A DNA stretch of 64,000 bases, from NCBI RefSeq assembly GCF_037201975.1, contig NZ_CP147520.1:682001-746000 (forward strand), written 5' to 3'. The notes beneath the pieces are model-generated. The model ran no database searches. It was not told the DNA's origin and was given only the letters and a program-made list of their open reading frames with translations. Positions 52,241 to 64,000 of the stretch are shown piece after piece. The DNA comes from Streptomyces sp. TG1A-60. GTDB taxonomy: Bacteria; Actinomycetota; Actinomycetes; Streptomycetales; Streptomycetaceae. The translations under genes and the position numbers were made by a program. Each line of letters opens with the position of its first letter. Positions within the stretch are counted from its first letter, which is position 1.

Positions 52241-52585
52241 TCAGAACCCCTCGGGGTGGGCGACGAGCCGGCCCTTCGCGGCACGCATCAGTTCCGAATC
52301 CGCGGCCGGGGCCTCCTCGGGGTGGCGTTCGGCCCACTTCACGACGTACGGGCACAGGGGCGCCACGGCGGCACCCTCACGGGTCGCGATGCCGTACAAC
52401 TCCCGGACCAAGGAGCCCGCGACACCCTCTCCCTCGTACGCGGACCCGACGATCGTGTGGACCGGGACCAGCGCGGGCCGCGGGGTTTCGAGGACGAAGT
52501 ACTGGATGTGACCGGCGAGTTCGTCCCCGGTGAAGGCCTCAAGTCGGTCGGCCGCCCGGTCGTCGCGGATCTGTACGTCGCTCAT
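52241..52585 (-). CDS. Small GNAT-like N-acetyltransferase (YjdJ/Acetyltransf_CG type)
   Basis: 114 residues from ATG 52585 (MSDVQIRDDRAADRLEAFTG). Compact family of about 95-110 residues: ELAGHIQYFVLETPRPALVP, VHTIVGSAYEGEGVAGSLVR (acetyl-CoA loop) and PLCPYVVKWAERHPEE, the last ending in the HPE motif typical of these proteins. Substrate unknown. It follows panD on the same strand after 46 bases, so they may share a transcript. Confidence 0.88.
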   Translation of the reverse strand: MSDVQIRDDRAADRLEAFTGDELAGHIQYFVLETPRPALVPVHTIVGSAYEGEGVAGSLVRELYGIATREGAAVAPLCPYVVKWAERHPEEAPAADSELMRAAKGRLVAHPEGF

Positions 52586-52631
52586 GGCACTCCTCGCGTG
52601 GGGTCGGGACGCCGGGCTGTCTCGCGTGACC

Positions 52632-53051
52632 TCAGCCGGTGACGGCCTGCGGGCTGCGCCGCTGGTCAGAACCCGGCACCGGCTCGGAGGCGTCCGCTCC
52701 CAGGGCCACGATCCGGTTGTCGCGGTCCACATGCACGACCCTGGGTTCCAGGGTCCGGGCCTCGGCGTCGGAGACCTGAGCGTAACTGATGATGATCACC
52801 AGGTCTCCGGGGTGGACGAGATGGGCCGCCGCACCGTTGATCCCGACGACCCCCGAACCGCGCTCACCCTCGATGACGTACGTCTCCAGGCGGGCGCCGT
52901 TGGTGATGTCGACGATGTGCACCAGCTCGCCGGGCAGCAGATCGGCGGCGTCGAGCAGGTCGGCGTCGATGGTCACGGACCCGACATAGTGCAGGTCGGC
53001 CTGGGTGACCGTGGCACGGTGGATCTTGGACTTGAACATCGTACGAAACAC
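52632..53051 (-). CDS. panD: Aspartate 1-decarboxylase PanD
   Basis: 139 residues: [20 protein letters not shown] / [20 protein letters not shown]. The proenzyme cuts itself between Gly24 and Ser25 (HYVG|SVTID) to form the pyruvoyl cofactor; Lys9 and Tyr22 of the active site are present, as are [19 protein letters not shown] and [20 protein letters not shown]. It converts aspartate to beta-alanine for pantothenate and coenzyme A. A C-terminal extension of about 20 residues is normal in actinobacteria. The 199-base gap to the biosynthetic cluster has no clear gene. Confidence 0.96.
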
Positions 53052-53250: not shown

Positions 53251-54963
53251 TCAGCCTCGCGAGCGCCCTGTGGTCAGTCCCGAGCCGGGGCGCCGAGTCG
53301 CTCGGGACATCAGGGTGCGGTAGCAGACCTTGCCGGTGGGGCCGAGGGGCATCTCGTCCACCACCAGGAGATGTTCGGGGTGTTTCCGGCGGGCCAGGCC
53401 ACGGTCCCCCAGGTGGGTCGTGAGGTCGGACAGCGTGGGAAGGGGTGTGCCCGGGGTCGGGCGGACGCAGGCGCACAGTCGTTCCCCCAGGTCCGGGTCG
53501 GGCACCGGGACGCAGACCGCCTCGGCCACCGCCGGATGGGTGCCGAGTTCGCGTTCGACCTCGGCAAGGCTGATGTTGAGACCGCCGCGCACGGCGATGC
53601 GTTTGAGCCGGCCCAGGACGTGCAGCCTTCCGCGCTCGTCCAGCCGGCCGACGTCGCCCGTGCGCACCCAGCCGTCGGGGGTTCGGTAACGGGCGTCCAG
53701 TTCGGGCGCGTTGACGTAGCACAAGGGGGTCATGGGGCCCAGGGCCTCGATCTGGCCGGTCCGCCCCGTGGGCAGCGGCGTGCCGTCGGGGCCAGTGACC
53801 CGGATCCGGGCGACCTCGGGGTCCGGGGTGCCGACGCTGTCGCCCGGCGGGTGGCTTTCTCCCGCCGTGTGGCAGTTCACCCCGTCCGAGGAACCGTAGA
53901 CGGTCACCACCGGCCGGCCGAACCGTTCACGGGACGCACGGGCGATGGCCGTCGGCAGAGCGGCGCCGCTGGAGACGACGGCGTACAACGACGATGTCTC
54001 CTCGCCCGGCCACGCCGGGAGGTCGGTGATCCGGCGGAGCATGGTGGGCACCGCGAAGAGGTGGGTGGGACGATGCTCGGCGACCATCCGCAGCGCCTCC
54101 GCCGGGTCGAAGGCCGACCGCACGATCAGGGTGCCGCCGAGGGCGGCGAGGGTGACCGGTGTGCCCAGGGAACCGAAGGAGGAGGCCAGCGGGACGAGGA
54201 CGAGGTGGCGGGGCGGCAGCGTGGTGTCGGGGTGCAGGCTCCGGACGTACCGCGCACGGCCGCCGGCCAGGGCGTGATGGCTGTAGGCGACCATCTTCGG
54301 CTCGGCTTCGGAACCGGACGACACCAGGATGCGGGCGGGTCCGTACGGGTCGGCCGGCCGTGGCCGCCAGGAGCGACGGGCCGGGGTGCGCGGGGCGTGC
54401 AGCCCGTGCGTCCGTCCGGCGCCCGGGCCGGGTGCGAACACGGTACGCAGGTGAGCAAGATCCGCGACGGCCTGTGCCTGGCGGGCCGATGCGAGGACGG
54501 CGCCGCGGGCCCGCGAGCGGGCGAGCAGCTGCCGGACGTCACGGTCATCGCCGCCCGGGGGGATCGGGAGGGCCACCGAGCCGATCGCGTAGACGGCGAG
54601 TTCCGCGGCCACGGCGTCGCGCCCGTTGGGCAGCAGGAGCGCCACCACGTCCCCGGCCCCCAGGTCCGCCCGGGCGAACAGGGCGGCGATCCGGCGCACT
54701 TCGGCGTCCAGCGCCGCATAGGAGAGCACTCCGGCGTCGTCCACCAGCGCCTGGCGGCCCGGGTGTTCGCGGACCCGGGCGGTGAACAGTGCGTAGAGAT
54801 CGGTGTCCGGGCACAGGTCCGCCGTCACCCAGGCGCTTCGCTGGGCGCGGGGCACCAGGTCCGGGAAGCGCACTCCGGCGCGTGAGGTCCACACCGGCTG
54901 CCCGCCCCGGCTCGCGGGCGAGGCGGTACGGCGGCTGGTCGCGGGGGCGGCTGCGGATGTCAT
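53251..54963 (-). CDS. Adenylate-forming acyl ligase (AMP-binding, class I ANL superfamily)
   Basis: 570 residues from ATG 54963, overlapping the preceding CoA-transferase stop (ATGA). N-terminal 35 residues are Ala/Ser/Arg-rich. ANL motifs: A3-like ILVSSGSEAEPKMVAYS, A5-like VVTVYGSSDGVN, A7/A8 RTPDGWVRTGDVGRLDERGR and LKRIAVRGGLNISLAEVE, and the C-terminal catalytic Lys in PLGPTGKVCYRTL. It activates a carboxylic acid to the acyl-AMP, then CoA or a carrier protein. Specificity cannot be read. Last gene of the visible cluster; probably cooperates with the upstream CoA-transferase and the second ligase at 57820. Confidence 0.87.
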   Translation of the reverse strand: MTSAAAPATSRRTASPASRGGQPVWTSRAGVRFPDLVPRAQRSAWVTADLCPDTDLYALFTARVREHPGRQALVDDAGVLSYAALDAEVRRIAALFARADLGAGDVVALLLPNGRDAVAAELAVYAIGSVALPIPPGGDDRDVRQLLARSRARGAVLASARQAQAVADLAHLRTVFAPGPGAGRTHGLHAPRTPARRSWRPRPADPYGPARILVSSGSEAEPKMVAYSHHALAGGRARYVRSLHPDTTLPPRHLVLVPLASSFGSLGTPVTLAALGGTLIVRSAFDPAEALRMVAEHRPTHLFAVPTMLRRITDLPAWPGEETSSLYAVVSSGAALPTAIARASRERFGRPVVTVYGSSDGVNCHTAGESHPPGDSVGTPDPEVARIRVTGPDGTPLPTGRTGQIEALGPMTPLCYVNAPELDARYRTPDGWVRTGDVGRLDERGRLHVLGRLKRIAVRGGLNISLAEVERELGTHPAVAEAVCVPVPDPDLGERLCACVRPTPGTPLPTLSDLTTHLGDRGLARRKHPEHLLVVDEMPLGPTGKVCYRTLMSRATRRPGSGLTTGRSRG

Positions 54964-56780
54964 GCGAACTCCCAGGGCGCGTACGGGCGTGCGTGGCCGG
55001 TGACCGGGTCCGGTGGTGCGACGGCCGCCCGGAAGGCCGGGTCGCGGGCCAGAGCCGTCAGGTCGGTGAGTACAGGGGTCCCGGTCAGACCGGCATCGGC
55101 CAGCCGTGCCGTCCACTCCTCGGTGGTGCGGCGGGTGAAGCGGGCCGCGAGGTCCGCGGGTGCCGTGGGGCCGGCGCGGTCGAGCAGGCGGAGCACCGCC
55201 TCGGGGCGCGCCCGGGCGTCGGGGCCGAGGCACAGATGGCCGTCCGCGGTGCGCAGCGGCCGGTCCAGCGCCGTCCAGCGGACCCGGTGCGCGGGACGGG
55301 GGACGAGAGCGGCCGCGGAGACCAGGGAGGAGTCGACATGGCCGCCCCGGCCGGTCGTCTCCCGGGCCGCCAGCGCGGCCAGCACACCCTGGGCGCACAC
55401 CAGCCCGCCGAGCACGTCGGTGAGGGTCATCAGGGAGGGGGCCGGGGGCTGGTCTGCCGGCCGTACCGCCGCGGCGAGGCCGCTGTGCACCTGGGCGAGG
55501 TAGTCGGTGCCCAGGGGCGGCCGGTCGCCGAACGCGTCCCCGAAGCCGGACGCCCAGGCGTACACCAGGGCGGGGTGGCCGGGCAGCAGGTCGGACGCGT
55601 CCAGGCCGAGCCCGCCGGCTTTCCCGGGGGCCCAGTTGTGCAGGAAGACATCGGCTTCGGCGGCCAGCGCGCGGACCGTGTCCCGGCCCTGCGTAGTGGT
55701 GAGGTCGGCCTCCACCACCGGCTTGCCCGCGTTGAGAGCCGAGAACCGGGCCGAGCAGTCTCCCGCCAGCGGAGGGAGCCAGCGCATCGGGTCGCCGCCG
55801 GGCGGTTCGATCCGGACCACCTCGGCACCCAGCATCCGCAGGACGTGCCCCGCGAGCGGTCCCTGCACCCTGCGGGTGGACTCCACCATCCGCAGGCCCG
55901 TCAGCGGCACGACGGCACCGGGGACCGGGACCGCCGGGCGTGGGGCGGGCACGCCGGTGTCCGGGTGCGCCCGGGCCTTGTGGACCGGTGCCGGTCCCGG
56001 ACTGAGGCGCCAGGGGGCCGGGCGGAGGGCGGGGGCCGGGTCTGAGCCGACGGCGAGGAGGCTGACGCCGGTGTGGTGCGCGGCGGCCCGCAGCTCCGCC
56101 AGCGTGCGACGGCGGGCGGCCTGGCGCAGTTCGTCGGGCAGCGGGCAGACGGCGGTGGCGAACCGCTGCTGGAAGGGCGGCCAGCCGCGGCCGGCGAGCG
56201 CGGGGGCCACGCCGAGCCGGGCCCAGAACTCCCGCCACGCCAGGGGATCGAGGGTCTCGACCTCCACGCGGGCGTCGTCGGACGTCTCCAGGGTCGCCAG
56301 GCCGCCTGCCTGTGGCACGTCGGATCCGGCCGCCGGCGCGTGCGGCACCTCCGGCTCGGGCGCACCGGGGTTGTCGCGGGCCGTCGCGGCGGCGAGGTAC
56401 TGGCCGACCGCCAGCAGCGCTCCCTGAGCCACCGAGGTCCGGACCTCGCGCAGGTCCAGGCCGCGGGCCCGCGCGACGCGGAGAGCGGTGGCTCCCTGGG
56501 CGGCGAGCACCCCCGCCACCACCGAGGCGTAGTCGACGGCCAGCGGGAGTGGCCCGCCCGTCGCCCGGCCGTGGACGTGCATGAGACCGCAGGCGGCCTG
56601 CACGGCACGCTCGTCCGGCAGGTCCGCGCCGACCGGGCCCACCCAGTCGACGGTGTGCCGCACCGTGTCCCGGTCGGCGCCGGTCTTCTCCGGCGGGCCC
56701 TGCGCGGCGTGCCGCAGCAGCCGGCCGGCGATCGTGGCGGCGACGGCCGGCCGGGCCGCGGCCCGCAGGCGTGGTGTCAC
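54960..56780 (-). CDS. Two-part CaiB/BaiF-type (family III) CoA-transferase
   Basis: 606 residues, about 200 longer than usual, GTG 56780 within the methyltransferase stop (GTGA). The C-terminal 330 residues are a complete family III fold: LTGLRMVESTRRVQGPLAGH, LRMLGAEVVRIEPPGGDPMR, FSALNAGKPVVEADL, LVYAWASGFGDAFGDRPPLG, and TDYLAQVHSGLAA with catalytic Asp426. The N-terminal 250 residues have a related but reduced look (LPLAVDYASVVAGVLAAQGA resembles the family's LxDxxxGxxAAxGxLAAL helix) without a visible catalytic Asp. It may transfer CoA between carboxylates of the pathway. The architecture implies a fused pseudo-dimer. Substrate unknown. Confidence 0.85.
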   Translation of the reverse strand: MTPRLRAAARPAVAATIAGRLLRHAAQGPPEKTGADRDTVRHTVDWVGPVGADLPDERAVQAACGLMHVHGRATGGPLPLAVDYASVVAGVLAAQGATALRVARARGLDLREVRTSVAQGALLAVGQYLAAATARDNPGAPEPEVPHAPAAGSDVPQAGGLATLETSDDARVEVETLDPLAWREFWARLGVAPALAGRGWPPFQQRFATAVCPLPDELRQAARRRTLAELRAAAHHTGVSLLAVGSDPAPALRPAPWRLSPGPAPVHKARAHPDTGVPAPRPAVPVPGAVVPLTGLRMVESTRRVQGPLAGHVLRMLGAEVVRIEPPGGDPMRWLPPLAGDCSARFSALNAGKPVVEADLTTTQGRDTVRALAAEADVFLHNWAPGKAGGLGLDASDLLPGHPALVYAWASGFGDAFGDRPPLGTDYLAQVHSGLAAAVRPADQPPAPSLMTLTDVLGGLVCAQGVLAALAARETTGRGGHVDSSLVSAAALVPRPAHRVRWTALDRPLRTADGHLCLGPDARARPEAVLRLLDRAGPTAPADLAARFTRRTTEEWTARLADAGLTGTPVLTDLTALARDPAFRAAVAPPDPVTGHARPYAPWEFA

Positions 56781-57598
56781 GGTCGCTCCCGGCCGGGCCG
56801 GCGGCCCTGCACCGAGTACAGGACGCTGGAGGCGGCGCGGAAGGACGGATCCTGCATCAGCCGTCCCACCCGGTCCAGGTCCTCCTGGGTCATGCCCTGT
56901 TCCGTCAGCCGGTCCCGGAGGTTGCGGGTGTGGTTCAGCTGGAGTCCGAGGCCGGGGTCCTGGGCGTGCCGTACGCCGATGTGGAGGTGGACGTCGATGG
57001 CGGTCAGTCCCGCCGCCCGCAGGGCAGCCGGCGCCTTCCGTCCCCAGTGCGGGTCGCCGCCCGCGGCGCTCAGCGCGGCCGTCTTGGCCCGCAGGAACCG
57101 GACGTACAGCGCTTCGGCCTCCGTGTCCGGGGTCAGCAGCGGCGGCTCGTAGGAGGCGTCGATCTCGTCGATCTGCAGCAGGCCGCCGGGTTTGAGAGCG
57201 CGCACCAGCTTGTGCAGGACGGCGTCGCGGGTGGGCAGGTGCTGCAGGACCAGGCGGGCCACCACCAGGTCGTAGGCCGCCTCCGGAAGCGGGTCGCGGG
57301 CCACGTCGAGGGCGGCGACTGCCAGGCCCGGGCCGGGTGCCAGGTCGCGCGGGTCGAGGTCGGTGGCGAACACCGAGCCGCCCGGTGCCACCCGGCCCGC
57401 CAGCCAGCGCGCGATGCTGCCGCCGCCGGCGCCGACCTCCAGGCAGTGCCAGCCCGGGCCGACACCGGTGGCGGCCAGGCGGGGCAGGGTCACCGGGTCG
57501 TAGGCGGCGGCCAGGCACCGGTGCTGGTCGCGGCTGTGCGCGGTGCCGTTGCCGAAGACCGCGTGGGTGCCCTCCCGGGCGGGAGCGGGCTGGGACAC
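56777..57598 (-). CDS. Class I SAM-dependent methyltransferase
   Basis: 273 residues from GTG 57598 with GAGAGGAG upstream. SAM motif I CLEVGAGGGSIARWLAGRVA (about 53-72), acidic strand VFATDLDPRD, motif II DLVVARLVLQHLPTRDAVLH and motif III LKPGGLLQIDEIDAS. This is the methyltransf_25/11 fold common in natural-product clusters. The family acts on N, O or C; none can be assigned. It starts a tightly overlapping trio with the CoA-transferase and the acyl ligase. An oddity is the region just before it, which repeats the same ribosome-binding site and start (see 57490). Confidence 0.9.
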   Translation of the reverse strand: MSQPAPAREGTHAVFGNGTAHSRDQHRCLAAAYDPVTLPRLAATGVGPGWHCLEVGAGGGSIARWLAGRVAPGGSVFATDLDPRDLAPGPGLAVAALDVARDPLPEAAYDLVVARLVLQHLPTRDAVLHKLVRALKPGGLLQIDEIDASYEPPLLTPDTEAEALYVRFLRAKTAALSAAGGDPHWGRKAPAALRAAGLTAIDVHLHIGVRHAQDPGLGLQLNHTRNLRDRLTEQGMTQEDLDRVGRLMQDPSFRAASSVLYSVQGRRPGRERP

Positions 57599-57753
57599 GG
57601 TGTGGCTCCTCTCGTCAGAACGCGGGCCCGGACAGGCCCGGCGTCGTCATGTGCGGCCCGGACAGGCCCGGCGGCCGACGCCGACGGGCTCGATGCCGCC
57701 GCCATGCACACGGCGGGGGTGCGCGCACCCGGGCGGAAGGCCGGCCGTGCCAC
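57490..57753 (-). CDS. Possible small protein gene overlapping the methyltransferase start
   Basis: GTG 57753 follows GAGAGGAGTCTCACC, almost a copy of the methyltransferase's own start region (GAGAGGAGCCACACC-GTG). The frame would give 87 residues (ARPAFRPGARTPAVCMAAAS ... AGPVRAAHDDAGPVRARVLT) and would overlap the methyltransferase gene by 109 bases, which argues against full-length translation. GC3 in the non-overlapping part is high. It may be a leader or an abandoned gene start. Low confidence. Confidence 0.25.
   Translation of the reverse strand: MARPAFRPGARTPAVCMAAASSPSASAAGPVRAAHDDAGPVRARVLTRGATPCPSPLPPGRAPTRSSATAPRTAATSTGAWPPPTTR
57625..57672. repeat. 18-bp direct repeat, 30 bp apart
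   Basis: GGCCCGGACAGGCCCGGC occurs at 57625-57642 and again at 57655-57672, start to start 30 bases (a multiple of three). It lies in the 221-base gap between the second acyl-ligase gene and the methyltransferase gene. Confidence 0.8.
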
Positions 57754-57775
57754 GGTGAGACTCCTCTCACCGTGG
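57750..57775 (-). promoter_or_regulatory. Hairpin that would bury a ribosome-binding site and GTG start
   Basis: CCACGGTGAGA (57750-57760), loop of 4, and its perfect complement (57765-57775). In the minus-strand RNA the loop is GGAG, part of the Shine-Dalgarno sequence, and the 3' arm holds the GTG at 57753. It is 45 bases after the acyl-ligase stop, so it may equally be a terminator or processing hairpin. Confidence 0.5.
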
Positions 57776-57819
57776 AGAGGCCCGGGCAGCCGTTGCCCGC
57801 CGTCGGACGGCGGGCCCGG

Positions 57820-59403
57820 TCACGTCCATCGGCCGGGTCCCGCGGGTGCGCTGCCGGTGAGCTGCCGTGCCAGGGCCGCTCGGCGGACCTTGCCGGTGCC
57901 GGTGCGGGGCACCTCGTCCCAGGTGAGGACGGCCGGGTCGCGCAGCGTCGGCAGTCCGTGCGTGGCCTGTTTCCAGGCGTCCGGGTCCAGTCGGCCGTCG
58001 GCGGTGACCACCACGGGCAGCGGATCGCCGTCCGGAGCGCCGAGGACCACGCATTCCAGGGCCTGCGGCAGCCGCTGCTCCAGTACGTCCTCGGTCCGCA
58101 GGCAGCTCATACCGGGCAGGGTGTCGGCGGCGCGGTCCAGGATGCTGACGCTGCCGTCACGGTGGTGGACGCCCATGTCGCCCGTGGACCACCAGTCGCC
58201 GACGCGTTTGGCGTCCCAGCGGTCCTGTTCGCCGACGTAGCCCAGGGCGATGGCGGGGGTGCGGACGAGGAGCAGGCCGGGACGGCCGCGCGGCACCGGG
58301 CGCAGCGTGTCCGGGTCCACCGCGCGCAGCCGGGTCCGGCCCGGCACGGGACGGCCGAGCCGGCGCGCCGTGGTCGCCGCGTCCGGTGCGAGCGCGGAGC
58401 GTCGCGTGTGGAAGCGGAAGGTCAGCGGTCCGGTCTCGGTCTGGCCCCAGCCCTGCATCCACAGCGGGCGGGCATGGCGGCTGGCGGTCAGGTACGCGCG
58501 CAGGGCGGGCGGGTGCACGGCGTCGTAGGTGCTGATGTACAGGCGGACTTGCCGGAAGGGGTTGTCCAGCCGGGTGGTGAGCGGCCTCAGCCGGATGTAG
58601 GAGGCGGGCAGGGCCTCGACGACGGTGGGCGGGTGGGCCCGCAGCAGCGGGTCGGCGGCCTCGGCGTCGTCGCCGGTGAGGATCACGATCCCGGCGGGCG
58701 CGAGCGACACCACCACGGCCGTCCAGCAGAAGGTGCGTCCGTGTCCGTACGCGCTGGCGTTGGCCAGGACGTCGTCCGGGCGGATGCCGATGCCCGGGTA
58801 GCGCACCGCTTCGAAGCGGGCCAGCTTGTGCACGAGTGTCCGCGTGGAGTGGACCACCAGCTTGGGAACGCCGGTCGTCCCCGAGGTGTGATGGATGACC
58901 AGGGGTTCGTCGTCGTGGCGCCGCACCGGTACGCGGGGGCGGGACGCGTCCAGCGCGGCCAGGTGGGCCGCACCGGGCGCGGCGGAGTCCACGGTGACGA
59001 GGATCCGGGCCGGTTCACCGGCGGCGGCGTCCCGGCAGCGGGCCAGCACCGTGGAGGTCGTGACCAGCGCGGCAGGCCGCAGCCGCTCCAGCAGGGTGAC
59101 GAGGTCCGCGGTGCCGAGCCGGGAGGACAGCAGCGCGGGTACGGCGCCGAGGCGGGCCGCGGCACAGGCGAGCAGGTCGTAGTCCCAGTGGTTGTCCTTC
59201 ACGATCGCCACGCGGTTCCCGGGCCTGACCCCGGCGTCGGCGAGGCGGGCCGCGGTGGCGCGGACCAGGCCGGCGAGTTCGGTGACGGTCCACCGGGTGC
59301 CGGCCCGCGGGGCGATGTCGAAGGGTCGGTCCAGGTGGACCACGGTCCGGGCGCCGCCTGCCGCCGCCTCGTCGAACAGGGTGCCCATGTCATGCGGTCG
59401 CAC
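57820..59403 (-). CDS. Adenylate-forming acyl ligase (benzoate-CoA-ligase/AMP-binding type)
   Basis: 527 residues from GTG 59403; GGAGGAG lies just upstream, and the start overlaps the flavin oxidase stop by 14 bases. ATG 59388 is an alternative. Motifs: LVIHHTSGTTGVPKLVVHS (A3), WMQGWGQTETGPLTF (A5), VGDWWSTGDMGVHHRDGSVS (A7), SILDRAADTLPGM, and VPRTGTGKVRRAAL with the catalytic Lys. Good canonical motifs imply an active enzyme that activates an aryl or alkyl acid. It is clearly different from the ligase at 53251, so two acids, or an acid and a later intermediate, are probably activated in the pathway. Confidence 0.88.
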   Translation of the reverse strand: MRPHDMGTLFDEAAAGGARTVVHLDRPFDIAPRAGTRWTVTELAGLVRATAARLADAGVRPGNRVAIVKDNHWDYDLLACAAARLGAVPALLSSRLGTADLVTLLERLRPAALVTTSTVLARCRDAAAGEPARILVTVDSAAPGAAHLAALDASRPRVPVRRHDDEPLVIHHTSGTTGVPKLVVHSTRTLVHKLARFEAVRYPGIGIRPDDVLANASAYGHGRTFCWTAVVVSLAPAGIVILTGDDAEAADPLLRAHPPTVVEALPASYIRLRPLTTRLDNPFRQVRLYISTYDAVHPPALRAYLTASRHARPLWMQGWGQTETGPLTFRFHTRRSALAPDAATTARRLGRPVPGRTRLRAVDPDTLRPVPRGRPGLLLVRTPAIALGYVGEQDRWDAKRVGDWWSTGDMGVHHRDGSVSILDRAADTLPGMSCLRTEDVLEQRLPQALECVVLGAPDGDPLPVVVTADGRLDPDAWKQATHGLPTLRDPAVLTWDEVPRTGTGKVRRAALARQLTGSAPAGPGRWT

Positions 59404-60760
59404 GGATCTCCTCCGCTCGGTCGTGGCCGGCCGGAGTGTTCCGTCCGAGCCTGCTCAGGACGCGGGACGCGGCCAGCGCGCCCGCCCGGACGGCGCCCTC
59501 GGAGGCGGGCCGCAGCATGAGCCAGTCACCGGCGTACTCCACCGCGCGCGCCGGCCGGGACAGGAAGCCGGCGCGTTCCCGCAGGGCCTGGGGTGTGACT
59601 TCCGGCAGGCCGTGGCGGAAGGAGTGCACGAGACGGTGGCGGCAGGCGCCGCCGATGCCCGGGACATAGCGTTCCGCCGCGCGGACGAGGAGGTCGGCGG
59701 CCTCGTCGGGAAAGGCGTCCAACAGCTCGGGGACCCGGTGCGGACCGGCCACGAGGGTGACCAGGCCCCGGCCGGCGGGGGCCCGGCCGGGGTCCTTGGC
59801 GTGGTCGACGACGACGCCGGAGAGCACGTCCTCCTCGGCGGCCGGGGTGAGCAGGATGTGCACCGGGCGCCGGGCGGCAGGGGCGAGGGGGCGCTCCAGC
59901 AGGCAGCTGACCTTCATCATGGGCGTGAAGGTGCAGGCGGTGAGGAACGGCTGCTCGTCGGCGGGGGCGTCCGGGCGGAGCGCCGCCGCGACGGGTGCCG
60001 GTACGGCGAGCACGGCGGCCCGCGCGGTGACCTGCCCGTCGTCGAACCGCAGTACGGCGTGCCCGCCCGCGTCGGTGACCTCGCGTACGGCGCGGCCGGT
60101 GACGACCTCGGTGCCGACGGCGAGCCGGCGGGCCAGGAAGTCCATGCCGTCGCGGTAGGTGCGCCAGGTGGCGGGGGGACCGGCCTCCAGCAACAGGCTC
60201 ACCATCGGGGCGGCCGTGGACCTGGCGGTGTCCCAGCCGAAGAAGCAGCCGGCGACCGGCTGGAAGAGATAGTCGTGCAGGTCGCGGTGGTAGCGGGCGG
60301 CCACCTCGCGCACGGTGGCGGCGCCCAGCGGACTGTGCTCGGGACGGTCGCCGTCGAATCCGGCGCTGCGGCGGCCGGTCCAGGCGGAGAAGGCGGCCAG
60401 GTCGAGCCGAGCCCGGGCGGACAGGCCCGCTCCGGTGACCACGGCCGTGCCCTCGCCGACGCCCAGGTGGGCACGCCCGCCGCGCCAGACGGCCACCGCG
60501 CCGCCGACCCGGGGCACGTCCGCGGGAGTGACGCGCAGCCGGCGCAGCAGCTCCCAGGTCGCGCGGTAACCGCGGGGCGCAACCTGCTCGGCGCCCGTGT
60601 CCACCGTCCAGCCCTCCTGGCGGACGCTGCGCATCCGGCCGCCGACCTGCGGCAGTTGCTCGTACACCCGCACGGCCAGCCCGGCGCTGCGCAGTTCGTG
60701 GGCGGCGGTCAGGCCGGCGATGCCCGCGCCGACGACGGCGACGTCGAGATCGGGCTTCAT
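59390..60760 (-). CDS. HemY/amine-oxidase-like FAD-dependent oxidoreductase
   Basis: 456 residues from ATG 60760, overlapping the UbiA stop (ATGA). N-terminal FAD site DVAVVGAGIAGLTAAHELRS (residues 5-24) with VYEQLPQVGGRMRSVRQEGW as in protoporphyrinogen oxidases, monoamine oxidases and phytoene desaturases. A middle substrate domain follows (LHDYLFQPVAGCFFGWDTAR), then the C-terminal FAD loop RAVEYAGDWLMLRPASEGAV / RAGALAASRVLSRL. In a gene cluster such enzymes desaturate or oxidise C-C or C-N bonds. Placed between a prenyltransferase and an acyl ligase, it may act on a prenylated intermediate, but this is inference. Confidence 0.85.
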   Translation of the reverse strand: MKPDLDVAVVGAGIAGLTAAHELRSAGLAVRVYEQLPQVGGRMRSVRQEGWTVDTGAEQVAPRGYRATWELLRRLRVTPADVPRVGGAVAVWRGGRAHLGVGEGTAVVTGAGLSARARLDLAAFSAWTGRRSAGFDGDRPEHSPLGAATVREVAARYHRDLHDYLFQPVAGCFFGWDTARSTAAPMVSLLLEAGPPATWRTYRDGMDFLARRLAVGTEVVTGRAVREVTDAGGHAVLRFDDGQVTARAAVLAVPAPVAAALRPDAPADEQPFLTACTFTPMMKVSCLLERPLAPAARRPVHILLTPAAEEDVLSGVVVDHAKDPGRAPAGRGLVTLVAGPHRVPELLDAFPDEAADLLVRAAERYVPGIGGACRHRLVHSFRHGLPEVTPQALRERAGFLSRPARAVEYAGDWLMLRPASEGAVRAGALAASRVLSRLGRNTPAGHDRAEEIRATA

Positions 60761-61731
60761 CCGGCGGCTCCCGTTCCGACGACGACGTTGGCCACGATCA
60801 TCAGCAGCACGCTCAGCCGGTGCACCGCGAAGCCCGTCCGGCGGGCGGTCATGATGTCGCCGCGGACGAACCCGGTCAGGTACTGACGGGCCCGCAGCGC
60901 GGTCGCCGGCAGCATCAGCAGCACGAACCACCAGGGGGCCGCCCCGGTGGCCGAGGCGACCGCGCCGATGAGGAACTCGGCGACCGACAGGGCTCCGATG
61001 AAGACGGCGTTGCCCCGTTCCGAGACCAGGGCGGCCACGGTCGGACGGCCCACGGCCCGGTCGCCGGCCACGTCGTTGGTGTTGGAGTAGACGCCGAACA
61101 TCAGCGGCCCGAACCCGAACAGCACCGCCTGCACCATCAGGAAACCGGAGAAGCCACCCGTCACCAGGCCGTACGGAACGATCACCAGCACGGCACCGAG
61201 GGCGACGAGGAACACCTCCTGGAAACCGTGGTAACTGATCTTCAGGCCGTACGAGTACTGCAGCGACACCGCGAACAGCGTGCCCGCCGCCAGCAGCGCC
61301 CACAGCGGGTGGTGCGGCGCGAGCGCGGCGGCGCCCGCCCACAGCAGCGCCCCGGCGCCCGCCGAGACCCATGCGAAGCGCAGCGCCTGGGGCACCGTCA
61401 GCGCCCCGGCGACCAGGGGTTTGCGTGCCTTGTTGCGCAGCGGGTTGTCGGGGCCGTAGTTGGCGAGGTCGCTGCCGTCCCGGAACCCGGTGACGTCGTC
61501 CAGGGCGACCATCGCCATGAGGACCGCGACTTCGCCGGCCAGGAACACCGCCAGTACCAGTGCCTGCCGGGTGGTGAAGGCGCCGGCCGGGAACAGCGCG
61601 GCGGTCAGGGCGAGGAAGATGCCGAGGTAGTAGTCGTACACGTCCAGCTTGCCGAGCCGCGCGTAGGTGCGCAGTCGGCTGTGGCCGTGGGCGGTGGCGG
61701 CGGGACGGCCGGCCGCGATGCTGTCCGTCAT
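60757..61731 (-). CDS. UbiA-family prenyltransferase (integral membrane)
   Basis: 324 residues from ATG 61731, preceded by GAGGT. About eight to nine membrane helices. The two Asp-rich, Mg-diphosphate-binding motifs are MVALDDVTGFRDGSD (Asp78, Asp79, Asp85, Asp88) and VYSNTNDVAGDRAVGRP (Asp220, Asp224), plus RNKARKPLVAGALT after motif 1, as in aromatic prenyltransferases of the UbiA superfamily. It should couple a prenyl diphosphate to an acceptor (an arene, or another nucleophile) at the membrane. Motif 1 is DDxxxxxD rather than the common NDxxDxxxD. No terpene-precursor gene is in view. Confidence 0.87.
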   Translation of the reverse strand: MTDSIAAGRPAATAHGHSRLRTYARLGKLDVYDYYLGIFLALTAALFPAGAFTTRQALVLAVFLAGEVAVLMAMVALDDVTGFRDGSDLANYGPDNPLRNKARKPLVAGALTVPQALRFAWVSAGAGALLWAGAAALAPHHPLWALLAAGTLFAVSLQYSYGLKISYHGFQEVFLVALGAVLVIVPYGLVTGGFSGFLMVQAVLFGFGPLMFGVYSNTNDVAGDRAVGRPTVAALVSERGNAVFIGALSVAEFLIGAVASATGAAPWWFVLLMLPATALRARQYLTGFVRGDIMTARRTGFAVHRLSVLLMIVANVVVGTGAAG

Positions 61732-61813
61732 GGGTGACCTCATGGGGGGTGTCTGCGTCCGAAGGGGGTGCCGCTCGCCCGGGCAGCGCGGTGTCCGAAC
61801 GGGCGGTCGCGCG

Positions 61814-62955
61814 TCAGCGGTGCTCGGTGGCGAAGGCGCTCACTAGATCGGCGACGTGCTGGACCTGAGCGTCGGTCAGCATGTGGTGCACCGGCAGGGC
61901 GAGATGGCGGCGGGCGGCCTGTTCGGCGCGCGGCCAGCGGGCGCCGGGCGGCGCGTAGGGAGCGAAGGCACGGTGGGCGGGCAGGGGGCGCGGATAGTAG
62001 ACGTGCGTGGCCACCCCCCACTCGGCCAGGTGGGCGCCGAGAGCCTCCCGGTCCTCGGCGAGGACCGTGTACACGTAGAAGCACCGGCCGTCCCGGCCGG
62101 ACGGTGGCGGGAGCACGCCATGGTCGGCCAGCGGCGTGAAGCGCTCGGTGTAGTACGCGGCGATCTCCGCCCGCCGCGCCAGCCGCGCCGGGAAACCGGA
62201 GTAGCGGTGCGTCTGGAAGGCGGCCTGGATCTCGTCGAAGCGGCTGTTGAGCCCGACGGCGTGGTGGACGAACCGCCGCCCGGTGTACTGGCCGTGGTTG
62301 CGCAGCATCCGCACCTTCTCGCCCAGTGCCGGGTCCCTGGTGACGACCACGCCGCCCTCGCCGGGCATGCCGCAGGTCTTGACCTGCACGAAGGAGTAGA
62401 GCCCAGCCTCGCCCCACAGCCCGGCCGGGACGCCCCGCAGCACGCCGCCCTGGGCGACCGCCGAGTCCTCCAGCAGGCGCAGTCCGTGCCGCCGGGCCAG
62501 TTCGGCGAAGCGTGGCATGTCGGCCATGACGGAGAACATGTGGGCCGGCATCACCGCCTTGGTCCGCTCGGTGACCAGCCGCTCCGCCTCCTCCGGGTCC
62601 ATGGTCATGGTGTCCGGCCGGATGTCGGCGAAGACCGGTGCGGCCCCGACGCCGACCACCGAGGCGGCCAGGGGCGCGCAGCCGAACGCGGGCACGATCA
62701 CCTCGTCGCCGGGACCGATGTCCATGGCCCGCAGCACCAGCGAGAGCGCCGAGGTGCCGCTGGAGCAGGCGACCACGTCGGCGGCCCCCAGGTCCTCGCG
62801 GAGCAGATCCTCGAAGGCGGCGGTGCGCCTGCCCAGGATGAAACGCTGCTCCGGGTCGAGGGCCACCTCGCGAACCAGCCCGATCAGTGCGGGGCGGTCG
62901 GCTTCGAAGAGGGCGGGAGGGAAGAACGGGACGGCGGGGGGAGCGATGCGGTCAT
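61814..62955 (-). CDS. DegT/DnrJ/EryC1-family PLP aminotransferase (first of two), probable frameshift near the start
   Basis: From GTG 62866 the frame gives 350 residues (LDPEQRFILGRRTAAFEDLL ...). The family N-terminus lies upstream in the same frame: IAPPAVPFFPPALFEADRPA then LIGLVREV. The natural ATG at 62955 overlaps the DegT2 stop but is one base out of frame; one more G in the six-G run at 62936-62941 would restore it. PLP motifs: CSSGTSALSLVLRAM, LRLLEDSAVAQGG, and SFVQVKTCGMPGEGG with the Schiff-base Lys, later NSRFDEIQAAFQ. Transaminates a keto sugar or keto-cyclitol/keto-acid type substrate; not assignable. Confidence 0.8.
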
Positions 62956-64000
62956 GCGGTCGTCCTCGTTCCGGCGAGGAAGGAGCGGATGGTGTCGCAG
63001 ACGCGGTCCAGGTCGCCGGATCCGAGATCGGGGTGGAACGGCAGGGCCACGGCGTGCCGGGCCGCCGCCTCGGCGTGGGGGAACTCGCCCGGCCGGTGGC
63101 CCAGGTGGGCGAAGGCGGGCTGGTGGGGCAACGGCACCGGGTAGTAGACCTCGGTGCCGATGCCGTGCCGCTCGAGGTGGGTGACGAGGGCGTCCCGGTG
63201 CTCGGTCTCGATCAGGTAGACGTAGTACACGTCGCGGTCGTCCGGCTTCCCGGCGGTGGTCCGCGGCAGGCGGGCGATCCCCGGCGCGTCCTCCAGGCGG
63301 GCGGTGTAGGCGTCCGCCAGTTCGGCCCGGCGTGCGATGTGCTCCTCCAGGAGGGACAGCTTGGCGAGCAGGACGGCCGCCTGGATGTCGTCCATCTTGC
63401 TGTTCGCGCCCGGCAACGCGCTCTCGGTGGAGATGGCCGGGAAGTCGTTCAGCGTGCGGCCCGTCCTGCCGTGGTGGCGCAGGGCCGCGACGGTGGCCGC
63501 CACCTCCGGGTCGTCGGTGAGCACGGCTCCCGCGTCGCCGAGCGCGCCGAGCGTCTTGGAGGGGAAGAAGGACAGGACGCCGCCGGCCCCGTGCAGGCCC
63601 GCGTGCACGCCGTGCCGGCGCATGCCGATCGCCTCGGCGCTGTCCTCGACGACCGTCAGGCCGTGCCGCCGGGCGACGGCGGTGACGACCGCCATGTCGG
63701 CCATCGTGTGGAACAGATGCACCGGCATCACGAACCGGCTCCGCGGTGTGACGGCCGCCTCCAGCGCCGCGGGGTCCATCGCGTACGTCTCCGGGTCGAT
63801 GTCGACGAACTGTGGTACCCCGCCTGCCAGTACGACGGCCGAGGCTGTGGCGAAGAACGAGTACGCCGGCACCAGGACACCGTCGCCGGGACGGACTCCG
63901 CAGGCGCGCAGCAGCAGCACGAGCGCATCGGTACCGCTGTTGACGCCCATCACGTGCCGGGCGCCGGTGTAGTCCGCGAGCGCCGCCTCGAGCTGCCCGA
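62952..64000 (-). CDS. DegT/DnrJ/EryC1-family PLP aminotransferase (second, 5' end outside window)
   Basis: The frame is open to the end of the window (start beyond 64000); 349 codons are visible. Standard motifs: HVMGVNSGTDALVLLLRACG, PGDGVLVPAYSFFATASAVV, LTVVEDSAEAIGMRR, SFFPSKTLGALGDAGAVLTD with the Schiff-base Lys, and NSKMDDIQAAVLLAKLSLLE. C-terminal YVYLIETEHRDALVTHLERH and GIGTEVYYPVPLPHQPAFAH are typical. It is closer to the classical sugar-aminotransferase consensus than its downstream neighbour. The pair is coupled (ATGA), suggesting two separate transaminations in one pathway. Confidence 0.9.
   Translation of the reverse strand, partial: GQLEAALADYTGARHVMGVNSGTDALVLLLRACGVRPGDGVLVPAYSFFATASAVVLAGGVPQFVDIDPETYAMDPAALEAAVTPRSRFVMPVHLFHTMADMAVVTAVARRHGLTVVEDSAEAIGMRRHGVHAGLHGAGGVLSFFPSKTLGALGDAGAVLTDDPEVAATVAALRHHGRTGRTLNDFPAISTESALPGANSKMDDIQAAVLLAKLSLLEEHIARRAELADAYTARLEDAPGIARLPRTTAGKPDDRDVYYVYLIETEHRDALVTHLERHGIGTEVYYPVPLPHQPAFAHLGHRPGEFPHAEAAARHAVALPFHPDLGSGDLDRVCDTIRSFLAGTRTTA

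Follow-up and report, generated by a model that had tools for sequence, protein, structure and literature searches.

A conserved sixteen-gene cluster of soil actinobacteria that may make a prenylated, nitrogen-rich small molecule

Positions 53,251 to 64,000 of a 64,000-nucleotide stretch of the Streptomyces sp. TG1A-60 genome (the window; G000:C1:682001-746000 of a 7.83-Mb single-contig genome) carry a minus-strand run of eight biosynthetic genes, which we found to be half of a sixteen-gene cluster shared by several actinobacterial genera. We propose, with a probability of about one half, that the sixteen genes encode a pathway to a small molecule, prenylated and rich in nitrogen, with a head group derived from a nucleotide amino-sugar. 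We divide the cluster into a sugar module (S), consisting of a nucleotide-sugar dehydrogenase (UGDH), two DegT aminotransferases (DegT1 and DegT2), two Gfo/Idh proteins (Gfo1 and Gfo2), a TIM-barrel protein (TIM), an M20 metallohydrolase (M20), Ldh2 and DUF6917, and a prenyl module (P), consisting of a prenyltransferase (UbiA), a flavoenzyme (FAD), an ANL ligase (AMP_B) and a methyltransferase (MT). A family III CoA-transferase (CAT3) and a second ANL ligase (AMP_A) form a frequent third block, and an EF-hand protein (EFh) completes the set.

With 21 UbiA proteins as queries we identified 136 relatives in genome contigs and kept the best 80 of these 136 loci, each reaching at most 10 kb to either side of UbiA, for tblastn comparison with 20 proteins of the window region. 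Each of the sixteen genes recurred in 53 to 80 of the 80 UbiA-picked loci: UbiA in 80, FAD in 79, AMP_B in 78, MT in 76, DegT1 in 75, DegT2 in 74, Gfo1 in 71, M20 and TIM in 70 each, Ldh2 in 63, CAT3 in 59, AMP_A in 57, EFh and Gfo2 in 54 each, and DUF6917 and UGDH in 53 each, some of the misses being due to loci that break off or to genes more than 10 kb from UbiA. For the flanking genes GNAT, PanD, 6PGD and gene 73244 (the last separated from UbiA by over 10 kb in the window genome), none of the 80 loci gave a selected match. The hosts were Streptomyces, Kitasatospora, Saccharopolyspora, Amycolatopsis, Saccharothrix, Lentzea, Actinophytocola and Actinokineospora, together with one short contig labelled Melainabacteria. 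Because the sixteen genes recur together in several genera, their co-localisation is beyond chance. A sequence-only reading of the window had named a conserved co-localised set as support for its hypothesis, to be sought in other genomes through UbiA, the HemY-like oxidase (FAD) and the CoA-transferase; these three were found as given above, and a lack of conservation as a group is excluded. The pairwise distances of the other fifteen proteins also tracked those of UbiA across 36 loci plus the window in which all sixteen are present, with r of 0.77-0.94 (0 of 999 permutations for each), values that are inflated by kinship. The Melainabacteria-labelled contig (L078) is 3 kb long, carries consecutive genes resembling UGDH, UbiA, FAD and AMP_B and is possibly a misbinned actinobacterial contig. 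The locus of Streptomyces sp. SW4 (L079) gave many short matching pieces over several cluster genes, resembling frameshifts or poor sequence.

The link between S and P was examined in a set of 392 Streptomyces genomes that contains the window's own. A UbiA match was present in 58 of them, a DUF6917 match in 52 and both in 41. Among the 43 genomes with a strong UbiA match (E <=1e-77), 39 also had DUF6917 (Fisher p 7e-38, a value that ignores shared ancestry), and 36 of the 40 DUF6917 matches in those 39 genomes lay within 20 kb of UbiA, the remaining ones (G003, G012, G047 and G243) being located elsewhere in the same assembly. DUF6917 was likewise present in all 25 genomes picked for a variant or incomplete UbiA locus, and a reordered neighbourhood of the S genes was seen for three Kitasatospora genomes. 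Since UbiA and DUF6917 co-occur even when unlinked, S and P most likely belong to one pathway.

Catalytic residues were counted over the loci that cover each site. UbiA belongs to the UbiA superfamily of prenyltransferases by its predicted structure and its PF01040 match; in the region of the first Asp motif it has D78, D79, D85 and D88, with Asp85 conserved but Gly at residue 82, and the second motif has D220/D224 in 80/80 loci. We rejected UbiA as an orthologue of MenA, the 1,4-dihydroxy-2-naphthoate prenyltransferase, at 25.4 bits against an NCBIfam equivalog cut-off of 277. The catalytic Cys of UGDH is kept in 42/42 loci and, with its three UDPG_MGDP_dh domains, is in keeping with a UDP-N-acetylhexosamine (UDP-HexNAc) 6-dehydrogenase by domain content; its matches to the UDP-ManNAc type (PRK11064, 218 bits, cut-off 459) and the UDP-Glc type AglM (151 bits) indicate similarity only. 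The pyridoxal-phosphate lysines of both DegT proteins are intact (74/74 loci). M20 retains the metal ligands and the catalytic Glu of an M20 metallohydrolase, six of these sites being kept in 70/70 loci and one in 67/67. The catalytic Asp of family III CoA-transferases is present in both halves of CAT3 (57/57 and 58/58). Core residues are kept in AMP_A (54/54, 54/54 and 53/53 loci) and in AMP_B (77/77, 77/77 and 76/76). Gfo2 has Gln in place of Lys in 1/54 loci, and at one MT site 58/76 loci have Glu and 18/76 Asp.

In the proposed pathway, UGDH would oxidise a UDP-HexNAc to its uronic acid, the Gfo/Idh enzymes would turn ring hydroxyls into ketones, and these would be aminated by the two DegT proteins. 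M20 would take off an N-acyl group, and TIM, Ldh2 and DUF6917 may rearrange, reduce or cyclise the freed sugar acid to a nitrogenous carboxylic acid usable by the prenyltransferase. UbiA would add a prenyl chain, FAD would oxidise and MT methylate, while AMP_B could activate a carboxylate, either as a CoA ester or for amide formation; where present, AMP_A and CAT3 may supply and hand on a second acyl-CoA, and the EF-hand protein would accompany the pathway. What the analysis establishes is the gene content, the retained catalytic residues, the conserved linkage and co-occurrence, and the predicted fold of UbiA; all substrates and the sequence of reactions are inferred. The sequence-only reading had suggested a prenylated, amine-containing product built on an aryl or alkyl acid that is activated twice. 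The first part agrees with the predicted UbiA fold and the two aminotransferases with intact lysines. The acid source does not: because UGDH, two Gfo/Idh enzymes, TIM, M20 and Ldh2 are found in the half of the cluster beyond the window, we favour a sugar-derived head group over an imported aryl acid. Double activation was not borne out either, as AMP_B is present in 78 of 80 loci and CAT3 and AMP_A in 59 and 57, some loci being incomplete.

The similarities of UGDH and DegT also fit a different division of labour. WbpA, WbpB and WbpE form a route to UDP-2,3-diamino uronic acids; WbpE is among the best PDB matches of both DegT1 and DegT2, and the UDP-HexNAc dehydrogenase, Gfo/Idh and DegT families of that route are all represented here. 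S might thus make an activated sugar of this kind, which a glycosyltransferase coded elsewhere joins to a separately made prenylated aglycone, and the wide separation of S and P genes in some genomes would suit this. We nevertheless regard it as rather unlikely: neither the sixteen proteins nor 50 chosen sister-locus proteins include a glycosyltransferase, apart from a TrpD-type phosphoribosyltransferase, a plain UDP-sugar needs no M20, TIM or Ldh2, and S is instead found alongside trp enzymes or an ATP-grasp ligase. The cluster further differs from the Wbp route in having two DegT and two Gfo/Idh proteins, DUF6917, and a prenylation or trp context. The uronic-acid type of UGDH, as well as the lack of a transporter among the sixteen conserved genes, would also agree with an envelope lipid, with UbiA working in the manner of decaprenyl-phosphate phosphoribose synthase to produce an amino-uronic acid linked to a polyprenyl chain; to this we assign very little weight.

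Among described systems the Ebo operon (eboA-F) and BE-40644 come closest; in them a UbiA-superfamily prenyltransferase accompanies sugar-type enzymes. Ebo pairs it with a xylose-isomerase-like TIM barrel, and its proposed product is an isoprenoid joined to a ring of carbohydrate origin (PMC5133447). Against inositol 2-dehydrogenase Gfo2 reaches 69 bits, and TIM reaches 31 bits against IolE. By analogy, Gfo/Idh and TIM could act on inositol or another cyclitol that DegT aminates and UbiA prenylates. This seems improbable to us, since both scores are far under the cut-offs (355 and 290, respectively) and the sugar-phosphate cyclase (EboD/EEVS) from which Ebo and BE-40644 start was not found among the sixteen proteins, where UGDH, two DegT proteins, M20 and Ldh2 are present instead.

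Sister clusters place S in further contexts. Where UbiA is 42-47% identical, S genes stand beside DXS and GcpE (L121), DXS (L127) or a polyprenyl synthetase (L119, its UbiA being in L133), and among 115 loci, some of them overlapping, DXS and GcpE occurred in 5 each, MMPL in 8 and a polyprenyl synthase in 6. Four loci lacking a strong UbiA contain a TrpC-B-A set (L116, L143, L148 and L149), with TrpD also in L116, L143 and L149; L148 begins at TrpC. In these the Trp genes are followed by DegT, DegT, TIM, M20, Ldh2, Gfo2, DUF6917 and a gene for a stand-alone, PheRS-editing-like B3/4 domain; UGDH lies upstream in L116 and would fall outside the stretches covered for the other three. All four genomes encode a second TrpB (57% identity) elsewhere, so the trp set is a dedicated duplicate copy. 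Other loci have S without Ldh2 next to MFS or MatE transporters (L144 and L150) or with an MFS gene and one for an ATP-grasp protein similar to L-amino-acid ligases (L147). In L145/L146 DUF6917 is the sole member of the set that remains, accompanied by PALP, TPP, ATP-grasp and DUF1015 genes, and L120 shows no more than a weak DUF6917 (32%). Across these contexts S would fit as the maker of an amine/carboxylate building block.

In one specific form of this role, S would start from a UDP-amino-uronic acid and end with a nitrogen heteroaromatic acid, for example a hydroxy- or amino-picolinic or pyrrole acid, by a non-shikimate, non-polyketide route. UbiA would then use this acid as a 4-hydroxybenzoate-like acceptor, the duplicate TrpD-C-B-A would use it as an anthranilate analogue to give an aza-tryptophan-like amino acid, and the B3/4 domain would serve self-protection. 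The 20 kb of L143 contain TrpD-C-B-A but neither TrpE nor TrpG. The genome of L143 has a TrpE relative, which lowers the odds of this heteroaromatic scheme, and we consider the scheme improbable.

Several observations weigh against our proposal of a prenylated product with a sugar-derived head group. None of the sixteen enzymes has a known substrate and, among the NCBIfam matches listed for them (at most 25 per protein), only the generic subfamily model of UGDH exceeds its cut-off. Pfam and NCBIfam scans showed no obvious ring-closing or aromatising gene, N-acyltransferase or glycosyltransferase among the sixteen. The best PDB matches of Gfo2 are L-arabinose 1-dehydrogenases, that is, sugar 1-dehydrogenases and not a WbpB-type 3-dehydrogenase. 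UbiA has Gly82 in 80/80 loci at a position that is Asp in the MenA motif, so that its catalysis could be different. DUF6917 is missing from four of the 43 strong-UbiA genomes, the three Kitasatospora S loci gave no UGDH match within their 20-kb stretches, and L144, L147 and L150 gave none for Ldh2. Finally, three of the four trp-type loci continue with TrpE and TrpG, and for the fourth, L143, a TrpE relative (54%) is encoded on a different contig of the genome; S therefore need not feed the trp enzymes.

The EF-hand protein of the cluster resembles calerythrin of Saccharopolyspora erythraea, a calcium-binding protein of unknown function. EFh is 55% identical to calerythrin over the full length of 177 residues; what differs is that EFh is tied to a gene cluster. 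Any EFh match was present in 14 of 22 Saccharopolyspora genomes and a strong one (E <=2e-52) in 12, and all 12 strong homologues adjoin other cluster genes in stretches of 20 kb each. Eleven of these loci contain 9-12 of the 16 cluster genes, EFh counted, and the twelfth only UGDH and EFh, its match lying 2.7 kb from a contig end. In Streptomyces, homologues (E up to 1e-25) occurred in 33 of 392 genomes, 28 of them with strong UbiA (p 6e-27), and 31 of 40 matches at this level lay within 15 kb of DUF6917. The 23 matches at E <1e-44 were all in strong-UbiA genomes, 21 of them within 15 kb of DUF6917. Two EFh copies were seen in some Streptomyces clusters.

Genes were called by codon-position GC, and proteins, including those in sequence fetched beyond the window edge, were scanned against Pfam and NCBIfam. 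All eight minus-strand genes of the families named earlier are present. AMP_A (53251..54963) has AMP-binding (175 bits) and AMP-binding_C (48 bits) domains of an ANL acyl/aryl ligase, as scanned from the shorter start at 54873; the in-frame ATG at 54963, given by the ATGA at the CAT3/AMP_A junction, yields 570 aa. CAT3 (54960..56780), a fused two-domain family III CoA-transferase or racemase, matches CoA_transf_3 (PF02515, 215.5 bits) in two stretches, in line with the two-part transferase claimed before. These are followed by MT (56777..57598; a SAM methyltransferase, Methyltransf_11, 51.8 bits), AMP_B (57820..59403; a second, divergent ANL ligase, AMP-binding, 174.6 bits), FAD (59390..60760; Amino_oxidase/HemY-like, PF01593, 122.6 bits, with HpnE as best NCBIfam match at 76.9 bits, under its cut-off), the MenA/UBIAD1-like intramembrane UbiA (60757..61731), DegT1 (61814..62955, body open reading frame starting at 62866; DegT/DnrJ/EryC1/StrS family, PF01041, 297 bits) and DegT2 (62952..64000, where the edge of the window cuts it; PF01041 at 356 bits in the L005 sequence). 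Of four claimed stop-to-start overlaps, three hold: the ATGA at 54960 was read directly in the sequence, and MT/CAT3 (56777) and UbiA/FAD (60757) overlap by 4 bases according to the called coordinates. At 62952 an ATGA exists with its ATG out of frame with the DegT body. AMP_B and FAD overlap by 14 bp, and gaps of 221 bp and 82 bp separate MT from AMP_B and UbiA from DegT1. The N-terminal part of DegT1 (62915-62955) is out of frame with the body, a C run being one base short relative to 11/11 relatives, which reflects either an assembly error or a real frameshift. Immediately downstream (52241-53051), with the strand unchanged, are PanD, an aspartate decarboxylase gene, and the GNAT gene.

The gene run had been thought to be cut only by the window edge; DegT2 in fact ends it about 178 bases beyond, probably starting at a TTG at position 64178 of the extended numbering (genome position = number + 682000). 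Extension past 64000, as the sequence-only reading had suggested, added eight cluster genes, making the window set one half of the whole. A divergent six-gene operon comprises, in order, Gfo1 (64402-65478), TIM (65480-66385), M20 (66382-67674), Ldh2 (67737-68864), Gfo2 (68861-69811) and DUF6917 (69808-70254), all assigned by Pfam/NCBIfam; EFh (70482-71015, L006:6482-7015; 177 aa, same scans) and UGDH (71187-72446) follow on the minus strand. No polyketide synthase (PKS) or nonribosomal peptide synthetase (NRPS) domain was detected among the eight window genes, as already noted for the visible part, or the eight added ones. Beyond the cluster (L006:11174-14350) are a McrC-like gene and a reading frame of 533 aa with an SDR enzyme as its C-terminal half.

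The menaquinone tail of MenE, MenA and UbiE likewise brings an ANL ligase, a MenA/UBIAD1-like prenyltransferase and a methyltransferase close together. In contrast to it, the three proteins of the cluster are far under its family cut-offs, the set has no isochorismate-type genes, and the first Asp motif of UbiA is altered. No title or abstract opening describing the cluster or its product was found in the literature searched, subscription papers and MIBiG lying outside the search. The cluster is akin to those of prenylated hybrid metabolites, its unusual part being the sugar-derived half.

Taken as a whole, the cluster represents a widespread orphan pathway of soil actinobacteria without PKS or NRPS, which rules based on core enzymes may overlook. 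S appears as a reusable module for a sugar-derived building block, found with prenylation, tryptophan-type and peptide-ligase genes, and the unstudied domain DUF6917 gains a role as marker of the pathway. Calerythrin-type EF-hand proteins are placed in a definite gene cluster. Should S indeed deliver a heteroaromatic acid, one cassette would feed two aromatic chemistries, and the pathway would be the missing context of calerythrin.
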